From Pseudomonadota bacterium (GTDB lineage Bacteria; Pseudomonadota; Gammaproteobacteria; Burkholderiales; Methylophilaceae), in contig JAKOWL010000210.1 in assembly GCA_029781535.1 (NCBI GenBank), positions 1-44,876 of the forward strand: DNA of 44,876 bases, in the 5' to 3' direction. Under the pieces are notes generated by a model. It had not been told where the DNA came from and ran no database searches. It was given only the letters and a program-made list of their open reading frames with translations. The position numbers and the translations under genes were made by a program. Positions 1-8,716 of this stretch are shown in pieces. Within the stretch, counting starts at the first letter, position 1; the number at the start of each line of letters is the position of its first letter.

Positions 1-423
1 CCGGTGTGGTTCATCGTCGCACCTTTGAAGCTGGTGGTGGACTTGTGGCAGGTCTCACAGGCTGCCGTGGTGGCAATATGGGTGCTTGGTTTGCCTATCG
101 CAGTCTTGCCGTTATGGCAGGTCGCACAGCCAGTCGTGATGCCGGTGTGGTTCATCTTCGCACCCTTGAAGCTGGTGGTCGATGTATGGCAGGTCTCGCA
201 CGCTGCTGTCGTGGCGATGTGGGTGATTGGTTTGCCTATCGCAGTCTTGCCGTTATGGCAGGTCGCACAGCCGCTAACCACTCCGCTATGATTATATTTT
301 GCACCTAAGAAACTACTGGTAGAAGTATGACAAGTTTCACAAGCTGCGGTCGTTGGGATATGGCTAGCAGATTTACCTTTTGCCTTCGTCCCGTTGTGAC
401 AACTAGCGCAATTACCCGTAATA
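1..423. repeat. 141-bp tandem coding repeats (47 aa)
   Basis: Near-identical segments begin at about 1, 142 and 283 (CCGGTGTGGTTCATC at 1 and again at 142), a period of 141 bp. Each encodes 47 residues with two CxxCH motifs. Copies further from the left edge are more diverged. The high nucleotide identity of the first two copies suggests recent duplication, and the array probably continues beyond the window. Confidence 0.85.
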
Positions 424-1064
424 CCTGTGTGATCGAACTTGACCGCACCCAAGAACGTAGTAGTTGATGTGTGGCATGTCTCGCAAGGAGCAGTGGTTTG
501 AATATGATTGGCTGACTTACCTTTAGCCGTGGTGCCATTGTGGCAGCTGGCGCAACCTGATGTAATTCCCTGATGATTAAACCCTGTCGCAGGCAACCAT
601 CCGGATATCTTATGACAAGACTCACATCCCGCACTCGTCTGGATATGATTTGCCGGTTTACCAGGTGCCGATTTTCCATTATGGCAAGCCGCGCATGGTG
701 TACCTCCCATTACGCCATTATGGCTAAATGAAGCCGGTGTCCATGAAGATGGGATATGACAAGTTTCGCATTTGTCTGAAGAAGGGATATGCCCAACAGG
801 CCGCGCTGAAGCATTCATCCGATTGCCATTCACATGACAACTGGAACACTGCTTAGGGGTTCCTTTAAAGATACCATTGATATGACAGCTTTCACACCGC
901 GCTGTTGCATGGTTGCCTGTTAATGCGAAACCGGTTTTTGAATGGTCGAACTTAAAACCCTTAATGGTTTTAGTTGCAGCAAAGCTAGGGGCCGCCAAAA
1001 TGACGGATAGGCAACATGCGATTATGAATGTCGCAATCTGTTTCCAATTTGTTTTTATTCGCAT
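1..1064 (-). CDS. Secreted multihaem cytochrome c, C-terminus cut by window edge
   Basis: The frame is open from an ATG at 1064 to the left edge with no stop (354 complete codons), so the C-terminus lies outside the window. The N-terminus is a signal peptide: charged MRIKTNWK, a hydrophobic stretch, and a probable cut after PSFAA. I count 13 CxxCH c-haem motifs (for example CESCH, CSSCH, CETCH, CASCH, CATCH). From the middle onward they fall in pairs inside a 47-residue repeat (pattern CATCHNGK...THI.TTAACETCH.S..SF.GA...H). An AGGGGG ribosome site lies a few bases upstream of the ATG. Repeat architecture and haem density fit a periplasmic or cell-surface electron-transfer cytochrome of the cytochrome c3/c7-like repeat type; the specific partner is unknown. 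It lies downstream of a 27-haem cytochrome gene on the same strand but has its own promoter region with a palindromic site at 1143-1165. Confidence 0.88.
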   Translation of the reverse strand, partial: MRIKTNWKQIATFIIACCLSVILAAPSFAATKTIKGFKFDHSKTGFALTGNHATARCESCHINGIFKGTPKQCSSCHVNGNRMNASARPVGHIPSSDKCETCHIPSSWTPASFSHNGVMGGTPCAACHNGKSAPGKPANHIQTSAGCESCHKISGWLPATGFNHQGITSGCASCHNGTTAKGKSANHIQTTAPCETCHTSTTTFLGAVKFDHTGITGNCASCHNGTKAKGKSASHIPTTAACETCHTSTSSFLGAKYNHSGVVSGCATCHNGKTAIGKPITHIATTAACETCHTSTTSFKGAKMNHTGITTGCATCHNGKTAIGKPSTHIATTAACETCHKSTTSFKGATMNHT

Positions 1065-1110
1065 AAAACCCCCTAAAAATTTGCTACTTCAATTACATTT
1101 CTCGAGCAAA

Positions 1111-1131
1111 GTGTGGGAAATTTATCCACAC
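1111..1131. promoter_or_regulatory. Inverted repeat in cytochrome leader
   Basis: Arms GTGTGG (1111-1116) and CCACAC (1126-1131) are separated by 9 bp, 47 bp or more upstream of the cytochrome ATG at 1064. It could be a second regulator site or a weak mRNA hairpin. Its half-site spacing differs from that of the nearby 23-bp palindrome, so I keep it separate. Confidence 0.3.
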
Positions 1132-1138
1132 ATGCCAG

Positions 1139-1167
1139 AGTTTATGTGGGATTTTTTTATACGTCAA
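1139..1167 (-). promoter_or_regulatory. Putative promoter with overlapping palindromic operator (site 1)
   Basis: Read on the minus strand, TTGACG (1162-1167) is followed after 17 bp by TAAACT (1139-1144), a plausible sigma-70 promoter for the cytochrome starting at 1064. The 23-bp element at 1143-1165 lies over it and matches the perfect palindrome at 5581-5603 at 17 of 23 positions, including the run of seven T and the core ACGT in the right arm. The promoter call is by eye; the operator role is inferred from recurrence at three places. Confidence 0.45.
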
Positions 1168-1251
1168 CCTATTTTTAAAAAAATAATAACGTTTGCGATT
1201 GTTATGAAAATAAATTATATAAGGAGAAAATTGCTTATAAAACAATGGGTA

Positions 1252-3237
1252 TTATCTACCCACCCCTGCATTCACTTTGATTTCCCTGAAGTCAGTATCC
1301 ACATGACAGCGGTCGCATTGAGGACCAAAGCTACCGCCATGGACATCATCCGCAGAATGGCAACTATAACAGGCAGTGTTTTGTTTAATTTTTCCCACGA
1401 ATGCAGTTCTGTGACAGTCAAGACAAGCCACACCTTTATGCCCACCGCTTAATTTGAATTTGGTTCTTGTGTCGTGGTTGTAATCCCACACTTTCCAATC
1501 GCGCACATTGTGGCAATCTTCGCAAAGCGTACCCAGTTGCTTCTTATGTTCATCATCTTTTTGATGGCAAGAATAACAATCCTTTTTCACGTTTTTGAAG
1601 TCGCCAGTTGTGTGGCATTTTTTACACTCGACTGGAGCATGCTTGCCTAACAGTGGGAACTTTGTCTTGTTGTGGTCAAAATCTTTGACCTTCCACGTAC
1701 TTTCGGTATGGCAATCTTCACATTTCTTACCTTCACTGCCTTTGTGAATATCATCTTTCTGGTGACATGCATAGCACGTACTTTGCAACTTCTGCGGCGC
1801 GGGTGCTGGCTTATGGCAACTCTCGCATTTGGCCTTGATATGCTGCCCCTTCAATGGATACTTAGTGTCCTTGTTATGATCAAAACTCGTGGTTTTCCAG
1901 TTATTCTCATTATGGCAACGATCGCACTTATCCCCAAAGACCGTCTTATGCGGATCATCCTTTTGATGACAATCGTTACAGGTGGTTTTTAGTTTCTCTG
2001 TCAAACCGTTGACGTGACAACTCTCACATTTTGCCGGCTTATGTTTACCTTTAAGCAAAAACTTGGTGTCGCGGTCATGATCAAAAACCGCTTTCTTCCA
2101 ATCACGTGCGTTATGGCAATCAGCACATTTTTCGCCAAACTTGCCTTTATGCGCATCATCCTTTTTATGGCATGAATAACAATCCATCGGCAATTTCTCG
2201 AACTTCAAACCGCCAGACGTGTGACACGCCTCACATTTTGCCGACTTATGCTTGTCTTTTAGGGGGAATTTCGTGTCCTGGTCATGATCGAAGTCGGTCT
2301 TCTTCCAGCTGCGCTCATTATGGCAATCCGCACAATTTTCACCCAATGTCCCGTGATGCTTATCATCGTCTCGATGGCAACCGATACAGGTTTTCGGTAG
2401 TTTTTGGCCTGCAGACTTGTGACAGCTCTGGCATTTCGCCGCCTCATGCTTGCCCAACAGCGCAAAATGACCGTCTTGTTTATGATCGAACGTAGACTCT
2501 TTCCAAGTCTTCTCGGTATGACAATCGGCACATTTCTGTCCGAACACACCCTTATGGTCATCGTCTTTCTTATGGCATGAATAGCAGTCTTTAGGCGTCT
2601 GCTTGAACATATTGTCCTTATGACAATCCTTGCACGCCACCTTGCTTTCTACCGCGTGCGTACCTTTGAGTGGAAAGTCGCTCTTATCATGGTCGAACCT
2701 GATATCTTTCCAGCTCTTCTCGATATGGCAATCAGCACATTTCTCACCAAGTGAGTTTTTGTGTTTATCGTCTTTTTTATGACAACCGACACAGGTCGCG
2801 GGCGCTTCTCTATATTTGACTTTTGGCTTGTGACAATCCTTACATTGCACCTTGTCACCCAAGTGGCCGCCCTTAAGCTCAAAGTCGGTCTGGTTATGCT
2901 TAAAGGTTTTCTCGTCAAGATTAACAATATTGGCTTCCCTGCCTTTATGTTCTGTATGACACTCAGAACAATTGCGCCCTTGCTTCATCTTGCCATGGTA
3001 GCCACGCTTCTGGCTCACATCTGTATTGATGTCCTTGTGACAGTCCTTGCATAACAAGTCCTGCCCTTCCTTATCAAAGCGCTTATGGCACTTTTGACAA
3101 TCGTCTTCCCACTTCAGATGTCCTTTGATGACCTTGCCAGGCATCATGACGGATTCCAGCGTGTCGGCAGTTGCCGTACATGCCATCAAGAACCCTAGAA
3201 CAATTGAAACAAAAAGACGCAACATTATTTTTTTCAC
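1252..3237 (-). CDS. 27-haem cytochrome c (CxxCH triplet repeats)
   Basis: Large c-type cytochrome with 27 CxxCH motifs in about 660 residues. After a short N-terminal section they come in roughly 65-70-residue modules of three haems, with the signature CYSCHKKDD.HKG.FG.KCADCH.E..W...FDHD followed by FPLKG.H and a third CxxCH. The signal peptide is IMLRLFVSIVLGFLMACTATA. I choose the GTG at 3237 (gives VKKIMLRLF, 10 bp after the upstream stop); an ATG at 3225 is the alternative and an in-frame ATG at 3273 overlaps the previous gene. None has a clear Shine-Dalgarno. LMAC could be a weak lipobox, otherwise cleavage after TATA. Haem number is in the range reported for large cytochromes of PCC3-type porin-cytochrome clusters of iron oxidisers. 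It follows the cytochrome-b-like gene at 3248-4129 and is probably co-transcribed with it. Periplasmic electron transfer is well supported; donor and acceptor are not known. Confidence 0.9.
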   Translation of the reverse strand: MKKIMLRLFVSIVLGFLMACTATADTLESVMMPGKVIKGHLKWEDDCQKCHKRFDKEGQDLLCKDCHKDINTDVSQKRGYHGKMKQGRNCSECHTEHKGREANIVNLDEKTFKHNQTDFELKGGHLGDKVQCKDCHKPKVKYREAPATCVGCHKKDDKHKNSLGEKCADCHIEKSWKDIRFDHDKSDFPLKGTHAVESKVACKDCHKDNMFKQTPKDCYSCHKKDDDHKGVFGQKCADCHTEKTWKESTFDHKQDGHFALLGKHEAAKCQSCHKSAGQKLPKTCIGCHRDDDKHHGTLGENCADCHNERSWKKTDFDHDQDTKFPLKDKHKSAKCEACHTSGGLKFEKLPMDCYSCHKKDDAHKGKFGEKCADCHNARDWKKAVFDHDRDTKFLLKGKHKPAKCESCHVNGLTEKLKTTCNDCHQKDDPHKTVFGDKCDRCHNENNWKTTSFDHNKDTKYPLKGQHIKAKCESCHKPAPAPQKLQSTCYACHQKDDIHKGSEGKKCEDCHTESTWKVKDFDHNKTKFPLLGKHAPVECKKCHTTGDFKNVKKDCYSCHQKDDEHKKQLGTLCEDCHNVRDWKVWDYNHDTRTKFKLSGGHKGVACLDCHRTAFVGKIKQNTACYSCHSADDVHGGSFGPQCDRCHVDTDFREIKVNAGVGR

Positions 3238-3247
3238 TACGAATGGT

Positions 3248-4129
3248 TTAATACATATGCACCCAGATAACATGGAATATGGCAGTGGCCACCATCATGT
3301 ACATCAAAGGAATGTGAATCACATGCCAGGCTGAAAAGATTTGTTCGAACTTTTTAAACTGTGCGACTGTTTGAATCTGTATCAGATATTTCTTTACCAG
3401 ATTGGATGCTTCTGCCGCTATCTCTTCATGCGCAGGTCCGAGCTTGAGATGGATATAACGTTTACAGCGCCATGCAAGCAACATGCGCCTGACGTCAAAA
3501 CCAAGGAAGAACCATACTCCTTGCAGAAAGTTACGTTTCTTCTCTAGTGCTTCATGCTCAAAATTTTTAATCTTTTTTTCCACCTTAGGCACAAAATGCA
3601 ATTTGGATTTAATGTCCCCCGAACTGCCAGCCATCTCATCATATGCTTCGTTGAGGGTAGACCGACTGCCATACAGGCCTTTGTGGATTTTTGTATAAAC
3701 AAAACGCCCGATCAAACCACTGCCAGCCACCAGCAACATGCAATACAACGCAATGGCTGCATTGATGGAACCCGTATGGAATGTGGTGTGAAATAAAACC
3801 AAAGTTGGGCCCAATACACCCAGTATCATATGGATGCGGAACCAATGTTTGAGCTTACCCAACCCCTGCATGAACTTAAGGTGCTTCCGCATCGAGTACA
3901 TCAGCAGAGTCAGCATCATCACACCGCCTGCCAAACCAAGGTAATAACCCAACCCCTCGCCTGGCTTGTAATAATTGCCATGCGCTACTCTCCAACCCAG
4001 CCAGATTGCGGACAGTAACAATACCAACATCACTATCTTGTTCACATAACGCATCATCGCACCAAGTCCTATATTACGTTCCGATTTGATAACATCAGAA
4101 TCTACAGTTCCTCGATATACAACACTCAT
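3248..4129 (-). CDS. Cytochrome b-like inner-membrane protein
   Basis: 293 residues with about five membrane helices (roughly 30-46, 62-80, 100-117, 121-142 and 272-291) and a charged cytoplasmic stretch at about 145-265. Histidines are placed as in dihaem b cytochromes: H100, H114 and H118 in the third helix (HMILGVLGPTLVLFHTTFH) and H269/H272/H286/H291 in the last. It probably passes electrons between the quinone pool, or the reductase encoded divergently at 4278, and the 27-haem cytochrome encoded 10 bp downstream. The ATG at 4129 has a good AAGGGG ribosome site. A palindromic site at 4148-4170 lies just upstream. I recognise the general type, not a named family; haem binding is inferred from histidine placement. 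Confidence 0.75.
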   Translation of the reverse strand: MSVVYRGTVDSDVIKSERNIGLGAMMRYVNKIVMLVLLLSAIWLGWRVAHGNYYKPGEGLGYYLGLAGGVMMLTLLMYSMRKHLKFMQGLGKLKHWFRIHMILGVLGPTLVLFHTTFHTGSINAAIALYCMLLVAGSGLIGRFVYTKIHKGLYGSRSTLNEAYDEMAGSSGDIKSKLHFVPKVEKKIKNFEHEALEKKRNFLQGVWFFLGFDVRRMLLAWRCKRYIHLKLGPAHEEIAAEASNLVKKYLIQIQTVAQFKKFEQIFSAWHVIHIPLMYMMVATAIFHVIWVHMY

Positions 4130-4147
4130 AATACCCCTTCAGCAACT

Positions 4148-4170
4148 TACGTGTAACTTTTTCACACACA
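4148..4170. promoter_or_regulatory. Palindromic operator-like element (site 2)
   Basis: The left arm ACGTGTAA and the central TTTTT match the perfect palindrome at 5581-5603, and the right half keeps ACAC; 17 of 23 positions agree. It lies in the 148-bp divergent region, 19 bp upstream of the cytochrome-b gene ATG (4129) and 107 bp upstream of the oxidoreductase ATG (4278), so it could control both. Confidence 0.5.
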
Positions 4171-4277
4171 TAATTTAATGGGTATATTATCAAACTTTTT
4201 AATACTTATGTTTAAATAACGTTAACTAATAGATTCAACGTATTGATACACTAGTCTTTTTTATCAAATTTTTCAGC

Positions 4278-5582
4278 ATGTCGACAATTACTTTAATCTT
4301 ATATCTAGCGCCTTTTCTGTTGGTTCTGGGAATATATATCAAGCGCCAAAGCCACCGGGATAGGCGTGGCCGCGAACGTTTGCATGAAGCAAAAGAGTCA
4401 GGCTTAACTGAACCCGCATCCATTCATCCAATTATCGACCCTGGCCGCTGTGTGGGTTCCGGAGCTTGTGTCAAAGCCTGCCCTGAAAAAGCTTTGAGCA
4501 TGATCAATGGCAAAGCCGTGCTCACCGACCCGACCCATTGCATCGGTCACGGCGCCTGTTTAGCCGCTTGCCCGGTAGAAGGGATAGACCTTGTATTCGG
4601 TACCGAAAAGCGTGGTATGGATATCCCTTTTGTATCACCTAACTTTGAAACAAACGTCCCTAATATTTTCATTGCCGGCGAACTAGGTGGCATGGGGCTG
4701 ATTCGCAAGGCTGCAGAACAGGGCAAACAAGCAATTGAAACCATCACTGAAAAGAAAAACGAAGGAAATGAATATGATGTTGTCATCATCGGAGCCGGTC
4801 CCGCGGGCATGTCTGCATCACTAGCAGCAAAGGAGAAGGATCTTCGCTATATCACCATTGAGCAGGAAGACTCGCTAGGCGGGGCCATTTATAAGTATCC
4901 TCGCAACAAGGTTGCGATGACACAACCTGTGACTTTACCAATTATTGGCAAGGTCGAGATGTACGATATCAGCAAAGAGGAGCTACTGGGGTTCTGGAAT
5001 CGCGTACTAAAAGAAAACGAACTTGCAGTCAAATTCAACGAGCGGATGGAAACAATCAGCAAAACCGCCAACGGTTACGCAGTTAAAACCTCCAGGAACA
5101 CCTATCAGACCGCGAACATTTTACTAGCGATTGGCCGCATGGGGACGCCCAGGAAACTCGAGGTGGCAGGTGAAGATTTACCCAAGGTTGTATATCGCCT
5201 TATTGACCCGGAACAATACATCAACCATCATGTATTAGTAGTTGGCGGAGGCGATAGCGCGCTGGAAGCCGCCATTACCATATCGGAGCAACCAGGTACC
5301 ACGGTAACACTCTCTTATCGCAGTGAAGCATTTGGGCGGGTAAAACCGAAGAACCGTGAACGATTGCAACAGGCTGAAGATCAAAAGAGATTGACGGTAC
5401 AGCTTAAATCCAATGTGAAAGAAATTTTTTCCGATACTGTCAAACTCGAATTGAGCAGCAAGGAAGTTGTAGAAATCCCGAATACTGCCGTAATTATCTG
5501 TGCCGGCGGGGTACTTCCCACTCCGTTTCTGAAAGAAATTGGCGTAATGGTAGAAACCCATTATGGCAAGAAAGTGAACTAA
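4278..5582 (+). CDS. Membrane-anchored ferredoxin / FAD-NAD(P) oxidoreductase
   Basis: 434 residues. An N-terminal membrane helix (about 5-21) is followed by a two-cluster ferredoxin-like domain (58-101) and a thioredoxin-reductase-like flavoprotein with GAGPAG at 172-177 (FAD) and GGGDSALE at 323-330 (NAD(P)H). It lacks the CxxC redox pair of thioredoxin reductase, so it is more like ferredoxin/quinone-type reductases. Both iron-sulphur motifs are short of one ligand: CVGSGACVKACP and CIGHGACLAACP have Ser61 and His91 where the second cysteine of CxxCxxCxxxCP is expected. It is divergent from the cytochrome-b and 27-haem genes and is a likely cytoplasmic-side link between NAD(P)H and the membrane haem protein. 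The ribosome site is weak. Oxidoreductase class is firm; the physiological reaction is inferred. Confidence 0.85.
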   Translation: MSTITLILYLAPFLLVLGIYIKRQSHRDRRGRERLHEAKESGLTEPASIHPIIDPGRCVGSGACVKACPEKALSMINGKAVLTDPTHCIGHGACLAACPVEGIDLVFGTEKRGMDIPFVSPNFETNVPNIFIAGELGGMGLIRKAAEQGKQAIETITEKKNEGNEYDVVIIGAGPAGMSASLAAKEKDLRYITIEQEDSLGGAIYKYPRNKVAMTQPVTLPIIGKVEMYDISKEELLGFWNRVLKENELAVKFNERMETISKTANGYAVKTSRNTYQTANILLAIGRMGTPRKLEVAGEDLPKVVYRLIDPEQYINHHVLVVGGGDSALEAAITISEQPGTTVTLSYRSEAFGRVKPKNRERLQQAEDQKRLTVQLKSNVKEIFSDTVKLELSSKEVVEIPNTAVIICAGGVLPTPFLKEIGVMVETHYGKKVN

Positions 5583-5603
5583 CGTGTAATTTTTTTACAC
5601 GTT
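5581..5603. promoter_or_regulatory. Perfect palindromic operator (site 3)
   Basis: Arms AACGTGTAA and TTACACGTT are perfect 9-bp inverted repeats around five T. The site starts at the stop codon of the oxidoreductase gene and covers the putative -35 box of the DUF6502 gene. An AT-rich stem with the T-run in the loop argues against a terminator. Partial copies occur at 1143-1165 and 4148-4170. Confidence 0.65.
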
Positions 5604-5622
5604 AATAAAACTGACATATAAT
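5594..5622 (+). promoter_or_regulatory. Putative sigma-70 promoter of the DUF6502 gene
   Basis: TTTACA (5594-5599), 17 bp, then TATAAT (5617-5622). Transcription would begin near 5629, only about 3 nt before the ATG at 5632, and no Shine-Dalgarno is visible, so the mRNA would be nearly leaderless. The -35 box lies inside the palindrome at 5581-5603. Confidence 0.55.
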
Positions 5623-5631
5623 ATTATTAAT

Positions 5632-6486
5632 ATGACAATAGGTTTGGCAGCTTCCGAGAAAAAGCAATCCATCATTCACAACACCCTGCGTAGGGTGTTG
5701 CGCCCTTTGGTACGCCTGATGCTTTCACAGGGCATCAATTACACTATGGTACTAGAGGATCTCAAGAGTGTATTTGTCAGTGTCGCCGAAGATGAATTCA
5801 AACTGGATGGCAAGCCCCAGACCAACAGCAGGATCACCCTGCTTACCGGTGTTCATCGTAAAGATGTACAACGTATTCGCAATGAAAAAGGCGAGCTGGC
5901 CGAAACACCTCATTCCATAGGCGCACAAGTCGTGGGGCTATGGCTTGGTCGTGATAAATACCTAGATGATTTTGGCAAACCAAAACCTTTAGCGAGACTG
6001 GCTAGCAAAGGCGGAGAACTTTCATTTGAGTCGCTTGTTGCAAGCATCAGCAAAGACTTTCGAGCCAGACCACTCTTAGATGAATGGTTAAGACTCAGTT
6101 TTGTCAACATCGATGACAAAGATTATGTTCATTTAAACTTGAAGGCATTTATTCCCAATCAGGATTTGGAAGAAAAACTTTCATTTCTTGCGATGAACAT
6201 ACATGACCACATATCCGCTACAGTAAACAATCTGGACAGCCAAAAACCTGCCATGATGGAAAGATGTGTATATTACGAAGGATTGACCCAGCAGAACATC
6301 GACAGCTTGCACGAACTGGCAAAACAAAATGGGATGGAATTGATTAACCTCATCAACCGGCGTGCAGCCGACTTAAAGGCAGCACAAGGTCCTGGAAGGA
6401 GAGAATCAGACAGCAAGACCGGCAGAATGAACTTTGGTGTTTATTTCTTTCACGAGCCAGGCTCAAGCAACGCTCGAAAAGACTAA
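5632..6486 (+). CDS. DUF6502 family protein, possible regulator
   Basis: 284 residues, soluble, no signal peptide. The N-terminal part resembles a helical DNA-binding region: a basic helix (RRVLRPLVRLMLSQGINY) and then SRITLLTGVHRKDVQRIRNE (about 66-85), which reads like a helix-turn-helix. The C-terminal part is helical and rich in charged residues. This matches proteins grouped as DUF6502, whose function is not established to my knowledge. It is followed 8 bp later by the DUF5666 gene, and DUF6502/DUF5666 pairing fits one operon. A perfect palindrome overlaps its promoter, which would suit autoregulation. Regulator status is inference. Confidence 0.75.
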   Translation: MTIGLAASEKKQSIIHNTLRRVLRPLVRLMLSQGINYTMVLEDLKSVFVSVAEDEFKLDGKPQTNSRITLLTGVHRKDVQRIRNEKGELAETPHSIGAQVVGLWLGRDKYLDDFGKPKPLARLASKGGELSFESLVASISKDFRARPLLDEWLRLSFVNIDDKDYVHLNLKAFIPNQDLEEKLSFLAMNIHDHISATVNNLDSQKPAMMERCVYYEGLTQQNIDSLHELAKQNGMELINLINRRAADLKAAQGPGRRESDSKTGRMNFGVYFFHEPGSSNARKD

Positions 6487-6494
6487 AAATCAAG

Positions 6495-7883
6495 ATGCGC
6501 CGACTCATCGCCCTCGCTGTTTCAGCTTTACTGTACTGCAACGTAGCAAGTGCTGGCAATGTCTGCAGCACTGGATTAAATGAACTAGGAAGCAACCTTG
6601 ATGGTGTTGGCGGCACCGGCCAGCAACTTAAAGATGGGATTGGCGGTACCGGTCAACAAGCTCATGAAGGCGTAGGGGGTACTGGACAGCAATCCCATCA
6701 AAATGAAGGGATTGGCGGTACCGGCCAACAAGCGCAGGAAGGCCTAGGTGGCACAGGGATAGTCGGCGTCATAACCGGTTTTGCGAGTATATGCGTCAAC
6801 GGGATCGAGGTGCATTATGACCAGAATACATCCGTAGATATCGACGGACAGACCAGCTCGATAGCCGGCTTGGACATAGGCCAGGTTGTTGCTATCGAAT
6901 CACGCGACATGAGAGCTCAAAATAAAGCCACACACATCAGCGTATCGCATGCAATAATTGGCAAAGTAGAAAAAATCAACCGATCAGGCAACTCGATCCA
7001 AGTGATGGGTAAAACCATCCCCGTGTCCCCCAATACTCAAGGGCGACATAACCTTAAGACGGGCGGCATGGTAAAACTAAGTGGCTTGGCATCTGCAGAT
7101 GGAAAACTCCAGTTGACTAGAATCGACCCAGCAAACGCTAATGATTTGCCCTCGATATCCGGAGTCTTGGATAAAGGCGGAAATATCCATGGCATCAAAG
7201 TATTAAACACCGCCCCCTCTGATATCGGAAAAAACATCCAGGCGCAAGGCTCATGGGATGGGCGAAGCCTCGAAGCCAATCAAACCAAACAAAATGCCGT
7301 GCAGCGCGTACTCGACAACAGTAAAACCGTTGCCATCCAAGGGCTCGCACCTGCTAATTTATCTAACAGCTTCAAATTACAAAATCGTGTGGTAACGGTC
7401 ACCAGCGACACCAAAGTCAAAGGTCTACCTACAAATGATACTTCCGCAGTTATCATCAAGGGTGTGGCTAACAATACCGGAGGCATCACCGCTAGCAGCA
7501 TTCAGTATATTGCCCGAGACAAAATACTAAGCCTCGGCGGCAGCAAAGTACGGCCAAGCACAGAAGGCAACACACCCAGCAAGGATGGCCGCACCCAGTC
7601 CGCCCCCAATACCCAGGAAAAAACCGAGTCATTTAAGGAACTGGAAAAATCTGAAAGATCTGAGCAGCTAGACTCAGCTGAAAAGCCCGAGAGCACCGAA
7701 AGACCTGAAACAGTCGAGAGGCCAGAAACTATCGAAAAACCTGAAAAGATTGAGAAGCCAGAGAAAATCGAAAAACCCGAAAAGATTGAGAAGCCAGAGA
7801 AAATCGAAAAACCTGAAAAGATTGAGAAGCCAGAGAAAATCGAAAAACCTGAAAAAGTTGAAAAGCCTGAGCTGCACGATTAA
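6495..7883 (+). CDS. Secreted DUF5666 repeat protein
   Basis: 462 residues. Signal peptide 1-20 (cut after ASA). Residues 37-88 carry five GGTG repeats, mostly GGTGQQ with a variable spacer. The middle (about 90-345) contains several small beta-barrel-like segments of DUF5666 type (GIVGVITGFASICVNGIEV, then IIGKVEKINRSGNSIQVMGK, and related later stretches). The C-terminus (about 375-460) is low-complexity, made of charged EKPEKI and ERPET hexapeptides. Export to the periplasm or surface is likely; the biochemical role of DUF5666 is unknown. It follows the DUF6502 gene by 8 bp, and its TAA overlaps an in-frame upstream ATG of the beta-barrel gene, so the three probably form one operon. Confidence 0.8.
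   Translation: MRRLIALAVSALLYCNVASAGNVCSTGLNELGSNLDGVGGTGQQLKDGIGGTGQQAHEGVGGTGQQSHQNEGIGGTGQQAQEGLGGTGIVGVITGFASICVNGIEVHYDQNTSVDIDGQTSSIAGLDIGQVVAIESRDMRAQNKATHISVSHAIIGKVEKINRSGNSIQVMGKTIPVSPNTQGRHNLKTGGMVKLSGLASADGKLQLTRIDPANANDLPSISGVLDKGGNIHGIKVLNTAPSDIGKNIQAQGSWDGRSLEANQTKQNAVQRVLDNSKTVAIQGLAPANLSNSFKLQNRVVTVTSDTKVKGLPTNDTSAVIIKGVANNTGGITASSIQYIARDKILSLGGSKVRPSTEGNTPSKDGRTQSAPNTQEKTESFKELEKSERSEQLDSAEKPESTERPETVERPETIEKPEKIEKPEKIEKPEKIEKPEKIEKPEKIEKPEKIEKPEKVEKPELHD
7731..7865 (+). repeat. 36-bp coding tandem repeat
   Basis: A 36-bp unit starting ATCGAAAAAC recurs at 7731, 7767 and 7803 with a partial fourth from 7839, encoding two EKPEKI hexapeptides per unit. Copies differ by about one base, so length variation by slippage or unequal recombination is plausible. 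Confidence 0.85.
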
Positions 7884-7951
7884 TGAAATTATCTATAGAA
7901 ATCTCACAAAGGTTTCGCGATAATACCCTCAGGAAGGCATTGAGATTTAAA

Positions 7952-8716
7952 ATGAAAAGAATAATTACAATATTCGCATTTGCGGTCAGCAGTGCGAGTG
8001 CGAACGATGGCAGACTTAGCTTTACTTCCGGTATTGACTATAGTAGGGGTAAATATGGTCAATCCGAAAGCACCAAAATCAAATATATTCCTATCATCAC
8101 AAAATACGACCAAGACAATTGGCAGTTGAAGCTGACCATCCCATGGATAGAGATCGACGGGCCCGGCGGAGCCACTGGTGGGGACAGTAGAATCATTATT
8201 GAAAGTAACGTCAATAAACACAAACGCGAATCTGGTCTTGGTGATATTGTCGCCGGATTCACTTACACAGCGATTGATTCAGAAAGATATAGATTCATTC
8301 TGGATATGGGTGGCAAGGTCAAGTTTGGCACCGCTTCGACCCAAAAAGGCCTCGGCACAGGGGAAAATGACTATTCACTGCAAACAGATGTTTATAAGAC
8401 GCTGGATAAACTCACACTTTTGGGCACTCTTGGGTACCGCTTTATAGGAAACCCAAGTAACGCTGATTATAAGCTGCATGACGTTTGGTATGGAACTTTA
8501 GGTGCCAGCTATCGGTTTAACTCCTCCAACAGCATGGGCCTGCTGCTAGACCTTAGAGAAGCAACATGGGAATACGGCACCAACATTCGCGAATACACCC
8601 TTTACTACTCCCACCGATTTAACCCTACTTATAGCCTGCAATCTTATATTACTTCCGGCGACACAAAATCTAGCGTAGATATGGGGGCCGGCCTGATGTT
8701 AAACGTTCGGTGGTAA
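7952..8716 (+). CDS. Predicted outer-membrane beta-barrel protein
   Basis: 254 residues from the ATG at 7952, chosen because MKRIITIFAFAVSSASA is a clear signal peptide. An in-frame ATG at 7883 (overlapping the previous TAA) would add 23 charged residues ahead of it. The mature part alternates hydrophobic and polar residues in many short strands (for example WQLKLTIPWIEI, YRFILDMGGKVKFG, YTLYYSHRF) and ends in MLNVRW, with a terminal aromatic residue typical of barrels assembled by the BAM complex. The length suits a 10-12-stranded barrel of the general transporter/porin type. Its neighbourhood with multihaem cytochromes suggests it could be the outer-membrane part of the electron-transfer system, but no cytochrome-sheath porin family is recognisable. 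Confidence 0.7.
   Translation: MKRIITIFAFAVSSASANDGRLSFTSGIDYSRGKYGQSESTKIKYIPIITKYDQDNWQLKLTIPWIEIDGPGGATGGDSRIIIESNVNKHKRESGLGDIVAGFTYTAIDSERYRFILDMGGKVKFGTASTQKGLGTGENDYSLQTDVYKTLDKLTLLGTLGYRFIGNPSNADYKLHDVWYGTLGASYRFNSSNSMGLLLDLREATWEYGTNIREYTLYYSHRFNPTYSLQSYITSGDTKSSVDMGAGLMLNVRW

Follow-up and report, generated by a model that had tools for sequence, protein, structure and literature searches.

The DNA analysed here, called the window, is a 44,876-nucleotide stretch of contig JAKOWL010000210.1 from a bacterium of the Methylophilaceae. Its left part carries two multihaem c-type cytochrome genes, a membrane protein gene, an oxidoreductase gene and the gene of a DUF6502 protein, and a palindromic DNA site recurs upstream of these genes (Table 1). 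DUF6502 is a widespread bacterial family of unknown function in Pfam (PF20112); the member encoded here probably binds DNA and regulates its own gene together with a few that encode exported proteins.

Four palindromic sites at a multihaem cytochrome locus

An earlier note on this DNA had described a perfect inverted repeat at 5581-5603 and two copies of it, at 4148-4170 and 1143-1165, each identical to it at 17 of 23 positions and each upstream of a gene start. The coordinates and identities are exact and the placement is borne out. The window holds no other match of at least 17/23, and 40 first-order Markov shuffles of it gave a mean of 0.025 such matches, with a maximum of 1. The note's count of three copies was one short, since a fourth site, S4, had been overlooked at 1108-1134. 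S4 lies 33 bp from S3, and the cytochrome promoter therefore has a tandem pair. The perfect repeat of S1 extends over 25 bp, with 10-bp arms around a 5-bp centre, and the 2.39-Mb genome contains its strict form, CGTGTAA-N5-TTACACG, a single time.

A matrix derived from the DUF6502 family, described below, finds exactly four sites in the window, at 20.8-22.8 bits, the next best stretch scoring 9.1. When the window and four related loci were kept out of its training ("left out" in Table 1), the matrix still ranked S4, S3, S1 and S2 highest (22.3, 19.7, 19.1 and 17.2 bits, in that order), followed by a stretch at 9.4. The best score per shuffled window under this left-out matrix averaged 11.8 (n=60; highest, 18.4). 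A chance origin of the sites was rejected on the shuffle scores, the left-out matrix and the Markov shuffles.

Two metagenome-assembled genome (MAG) loci of Methylotenera, L003 and L004, encode DUF6502 proteins 66-69% identical to that of the window and share its gene order of cytochrome, membrane protein, oxidoreductase and DUF6502, although the first cytochrome of L004 was not among the genes called there. S4 stands in both as an unbroken block with 18 invariant columns, and S3 and S2 are largely invariant, all amid diverged intergenic DNA. S2, S3 and S4 thus recur at orthologous clusters, but S1, the perfect palindrome from which the earlier note set out, is the one copy that was not detected at its position in these two closest relatives. 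DUF6502 lies on the same strand as the oxidoreductase gene in L003 and L004, 25 and 67 nt after it, and may be transcribed there from the S2 promoter.

S1 begins in the stop codon of the oxidoreductase gene (4278-5582) and could instead be a terminator or an mRNA 3' hairpin of that gene, its likeness to S2 and S3 being incidental. The RNA of this region has a folding energy of -13.2 kcal/mol (z -3.2; 2/200 shuffles equally good), and there is a terminator-like match on the minus strand. No such match was found on the plus strand, along which the oxidoreductase gene is read, and a terminator on that strand was rejected; the DNA matrix trained on other genomes also recognises S1. We find this origin of S1 hardly credible.

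Table 1. Genes, palindromic sites and promoter-like sequences at the left end of the window. Scores are bits of the family matrix; "left out" is the score from the matrix trained without the window and four relatives.
Feature	Position	Strand	Remarks
First multihaem c-type cytochrome	3-1064	-	Cut by the contig start; 13 CXXCH within the window
Site S4	1108-1134		AAAGTGTGGGAAATTTATCCACACATG; 22.8 bits; 22.3 left out
Promoter-like TTGACG-17-TAAACT	1139-1167	-	9/12; encloses S3; TTGACG kept in L003 and L004
Site S3	1141-1167		20.8 bits; 19.7 left out; inside the spacer of the minus-strand promoter-like sequence facing the cytochrome gene; 1143-1165 in the earlier note
27-haem c-type cytochrome	1252-3273	-	
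Membrane protein	3248-4129	-	Without family match
Site S2	4146-4172		22.4 bits; 17.2 left out; between divergent genes; 4148-4170 in the earlier note
Promoter-like TTCACA-16/18-TATATT/TATTAT	4161-4190	+	10/12; first hexamer within right arm of S2
FAD/4Fe-4S oxidoreductase	4278-5582	+	Pfam Pyr_redox_3, Fer4_10
Site S1, perfect palindrome	5580-5604		22.2 bits; 19.1 left out; upstream of DUF6502; 5581-5603 in the earlier note
Promoter-like TTTACA-17-TATAAT	5594-5622	+	11/12, best of 1000-6000; -35 within right arm of S1
DUF6502, proposed regulator	5632-6486	+	PF20112, E 7.4e-29; helix-turn-helix-like helices in model
DUF5666 protein with GIGGTG-type repeats	6495-7883	+	Probably same operon as DUF6502
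Outer-membrane-type protein, Phenol_MetA_deg family	7883-8716	+	Probably same operon as DUF6502

Two operator types and the DUF6502 clades

Upstream regions were compared at 65 loci, comprising the window, eight relatives (titled MAG records) and 56 of 57 other places in 300 genomes of the same order. GTG-N11-CAC occurs upstream of DUF6502 in 34/65 loci, with inner symmetry in 27, compared with a mean of 4.9 and a maximum of 12 loci over 300 shuffles. Other GTG/CAC spacings from 5 to 21 were found upstream in 0 to 12 loci, at most 5 symmetric, and the N11 form inside the DUF6502 gene in 9/65, with 2 symmetric. An iterated symmetric matrix converged on the consensus TTTACGTGGGAAAATTTCCCACGTAAA and identified 72 sites in 46/65 loci, frequently paired about 27-39 or 57-66 bp apart. 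In 1.15 Mb of sequence from the 65 loci, sites of at least 15 bits are concentrated at DUF6502, 68 of the 89 being no more than 350 bp upstream of the match to this family. The operator pattern is GTG[GT][GA]AAANTTT[CT][CA]CAC, with strongly conserved inner GGGAA/TTCCC positions. Across the family its centre is A/T-rich and not the spacer of five T that the earlier note had described.

The same note had seen a loose likeness to CRP/FNR sites. A CRP site has 8 bases between GTG and CAC (TGTGA-N6-TCACA-like); the arms here are alike but stand 11 bases apart. GTG-N8-CAC was found in 3/65 upstream regions, never symmetric, compared with 34/65 for N11, and a CRP/FNR site was rejected on this spacing.

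The operator also follows the presence of the family. The strict pattern GTGKRAAWNWTTYMCAC occurs in 20 of the 300 same-order genomes, in 13/48 DUF6502 carriers and 7/252 non-carriers (Fisher p = 3e-7), and the reversed-pattern control in 5/300, all non-carriers. This distribution, with the operator upstream of DUF6502 family-wide, supports the small dedicated regulon tied to DUF6502 that had been proposed from the window alone. The window's own genome has no match to the strict pattern because its sites deviate by a base or more.

A class-level sample added 90 loci out of 136 places (two same-order), 30 as the search gave them and 60 further ones, the choice falling mostly on places that fit the Pfam model less well. 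These loci hold 93 DUF6502 gene segments, for which the matrix found 23 upstream sites of at least 15 bits; the equal in-gene stretch never scored above 4.0. In this test on other orders, made on loci outside the training set but not on a wholly separate group, since training loci L006 and L008 have gammaproteobacterial MAG titles, the site (type A) was present in 25/31 members of one protein clade and 0/61 non-members. Among genes without it, TGGG-N8-CCCA was found in 21/86, and every other spacing from 0 to 15 in 0-2. This second operator, type B, is TTGGGA-N6-TCCCAA, and its matrix has the core TTGGGAATATATTCCCAA. With both matrices, 71 of 158 DUF6502 genes received label A and 28 label B, leaving 59 with neither; the in-gene control gave 0/158. 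The B matrix, for which genes lacking an A site served as the training set, is judged against the in-gene control only. Each gene received one label, and L205, above both thresholds, was labelled B by its higher score.

A FastTree phylogeny of 157 of the 158 proteins (one short fragment was dropped) contains a clade of 92 (support 0.865), here clade A, with 71 A, 0 B and 21 unlabelled genes. Outside it are 0 A, 27 B and 38 unlabelled genes. Operator type tracks protein clade, with no exception among labelled genes, and by the computed sites 71/92 clade-A proteins have the palindromic operator at their own promoter. Two genomes, G308 (L179/L215) and G435 (L186/L206), each hold one A and one B gene, each gene with its own operator. 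The match of clade and operator, even within these two genomes, speaks against base composition, or a single regulator from outside, as its source. The family-wide operator, the two operator types and their tie to protein clade are new here; a search of the accessible literature did not find DUF6502 by name and returned the operator strings only in an unrelated paper on FddR (PMC13148647).

FddR bears on the possibility that another conserved regulator (CRP/FNR, LexA/S24 or other) owns the operator and that DUF6502 is merely a target. FddR, an S24-family repressor of Francisella that is unrelated to DUF6502, is reported to bind GTG-N11-CAC; it resembles the proposed DUF6502 system in dyad and spacing, autoregulation, a divergent target and a small regulon (PMC13148647). 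The two systems differ in that spacer substitutions in the FddR operator reportedly do not abolish binding (PMC13148647), whereas the inner GGGAA/TTCCC of the DUF6502 operator is strongly conserved. FddR is moreover an S24 peptidase (PMC13148647), while no S24 peptidase domain was matched by Pfam in the window's DUF6502 protein or its eight relatives. These 9 proteins likewise matched no cyclic-nucleotide-binding or Crp helix-turn-helix (HTH) domain and no regulator family in Pfam. Against an outside owner also stand the control-level frequency of the pattern in genomes without DUF6502 (7/252; reversed, 5/300), the lack of enrichment of CRP-like spacing, and operator type following the DUF6502 clade even for two genes in one genome. 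We consider ownership by another regulator distinctly improbable.

DUF6502 as a putative autoregulated repressor

The window's DUF6502 protein matches PF20112 at 100.9 bits (cut-off 27) and is the single match in its genome; NCBIfam has no family for it or for the DUF5666 protein. Clade A is more distant than the other clade from the Pfam model. In a structure model from 9 sequences, residues 31-170 are fair to good (blocks of ten at 73-90) except for 81-100 (67 and 53). The model contains helices at 65-72 and 76-88 separated by a three-residue turn, followed by helix, helix, strand and strand at 132-168. Read from secondary structure alone, this arrangement suggests an HTH plus a winged-helix-like part. 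Position 75, in the second HTH-like helix, is His in 83/92 clade-A proteins and Thr, Ser or Asn in 55/65 others. Operator type follows clade and this helix differs between the clades, which makes an autoregulated transcription factor the most likely identity of DUF6502.

It is highly probable, on the sequence evidence, that the palindromes are the operator of DUF6502 (5632-6486), an HTH factor that would control its own unit and a few other genes, most likely by repression. DUF6502 would bind the operator pattern, probably as a dimer; besides the transcription unit that encodes it, its targets here would be the genes for the multihaem cytochromes and the oxidoreductase. Repression is the most likely outcome because the sites overlap the -35 element or the -35/-10 spacer of likely promoters. 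Action at the S3/S4 tandem pair would perhaps be cooperative, and a signal would release repression. One-component HTH repressors of the TetR or LacI type have a palindromic operator over -35/-10 and regulate themselves; the probable mode of action of DUF6502 is alike, and it differs from them in having no match to a Pfam regulator family.

DUF6502 could also bind the operator as an activator, or as both activator and repressor. In favour of this, part of the sites are placed farther upstream, as far as -233 counted from where the family match starts. S1, S2 and S3, by contrast, overlap promoter-like core elements, and among 110 A-type sites 30 have TCAA at their end, compared with 3 in the mirrored sense. 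A TCAA end is a TTGA -35 on the opposite strand, with the operator then in the spacer. A role as activator, sole or dual, is accordingly less favoured and, in our judgement, unlikely.

Several observations weigh against DUF6502 as an autoregulated HTH repressor with a defined operator. Its structure model is weak overall (mean predicted local distance difference test score, pLDDT, 63.3; predicted template modelling score, pTM, 0.36), and position 75 discriminates incompletely, with Asn in both clades. The 9 proteins scanned gave no significant Pfam HTH match (best, HTH_29, E 0.068 in 1/9), and PDB sequence searches with 9- and 49-member profiles returned nothing significant. A site is missing from the searched upstream stretch in 21/92 clade members, including L003 and L004; in these two and in L061 and L071 a site is present elsewhere nearby. 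There is some N11 enrichment 3' of DUF6502 (12/65 loci, 7 symmetric, the symmetry above other spacings there), and one of the 60 shuffled windows, at 18.4 bits, scored above S2 in the left-out matrix. Promoter-like matches in 1000-6000 number 16 compared with 10.1 (sd 2.7) in shuffles, a modest excess, and the geometry of sites and promoters is therefore suggestive only. Taken with the operator and clade evidence, an autoregulated HTH repressor with a defined operator is still what DUF6502 most likely is.

Probable targets and regulon size

The first multihaem cytochrome of the window, cut by the contig start, has an orthologue in L003 with 21 CXXCH motifs. The protein at 3248-4129, which the earlier note had taken for a cytochrome b, has no Pfam or NCBIfam match, and this assignment was dropped. 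Proteins with at least 3 CXXCH motifs are found in 6/65 loci, and cytochromes are not the general target of the DUF6502 operator. A separate cytochrome link occurs in genomes G067, G088 and G201, where a gene for a nonahaem cytochrome, close to DUF6502, is preceded by an operator. Other sites lie before or between DUF6502 and genes for lipoproteins, other exported proteins and a DUF535 protein. A DUF535-type gene is divergent to DUF6502 across the operator region in L050 (by Pfam match) and in L057 and L069 (by clustering).

DUF6502 is followed in 31/65 loci by a member of one of four protein clusters, the largest of which includes the window's DUF5666 protein, the only one of these 3' proteins scanned with Pfam; neighbour counts are rough, since the simple gene caller errs in GC-rich genomes. 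N-terminal hexapeptide repeats of the GIGGTG type are found in DUF6502-adjacent proteins of the window (6495-7883), L063, L057, L106 and L111, the carriers being DUF5666 proteins and one protein with a tentative likeness to FecR. The window's DUF5666 protein also has a KIEKPE-like C-terminal tandem repeat (7690-7870) with many Lys, Ile, Glu and Pro residues. Tandem operator sites 28-29 bp apart lie near related proteins in L108 (G015) and L109 (G274), the L109 protein being without a Pfam match.

Across 15 genomes hand-picked as carriers, 60 sites with at most one mismatch were found, compared with 13 for the reversed control, and one of the 15 has none. Sites per genome are few, and regulons thus seem small. 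Counted among the 60 is a near-match, GTCGAAAAATTTTACAC, which is distinct from the operator palindrome and recurs in G015 (several places) and G067 (C26, C44 and C46). In the rest of the genome from which the window comes, 52 matches with no more than two mismatches were counted, compared with 41 for the reversed control. Fifty of the 52 were rescored on the 17-bp core and 11 stretches were examined with flanks, a procedure that sites with more mismatches would escape; with flanks, only C75:2143 (17.5 bits) and C88:14025 (19.2 bits) exceed 16 among the 50 matches listed. The first (C75:2143-2169, L116), a possible further operator, is on a 3.8-kb contig, 51 nt before the gene of an exported protein that matches TPR/YfiO weakly. 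The second (C88:14025-14051, L117) lies about 40 nt after the gene of a small Cys-rich protein with a twin-arginine-like start. DUF6502 is carried by 48/300 same-order and 99/369 same-class genomes sampled and by 0/8 other genomes of the same family, and the locus therefore looks accessory in this family.

More broadly, we think it somewhat probable that DUF6502 proteins form a large family of proteobacterial transcription factors, so far undescribed, whose clades diverged in recognition helix and operator geometry (a 17-bp odd GTGGGAAANTTTCCCAC compared with an 18-bp even TTGGGAN6TCCCAA). Clade A would govern a cell-envelope programme of DUF5666-type proteins with GIGGTG repeats, lipoproteins, DUF535 and outer-membrane proteins, and multihaem cytochrome genes of electron transfer would have been recruited to it more than once (21- and 27-haem in Methylotenera-like bacteria, nonahaem in three other genomes). 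If so, a domain of unknown function would become a regulator with a defined binding site, and there would be a first handle on the switching of large multihaem cytochromes. The two operator types, one base apart in spacing and each tied to a clade, would then offer a natural case for the co-evolution of regulator and operator.

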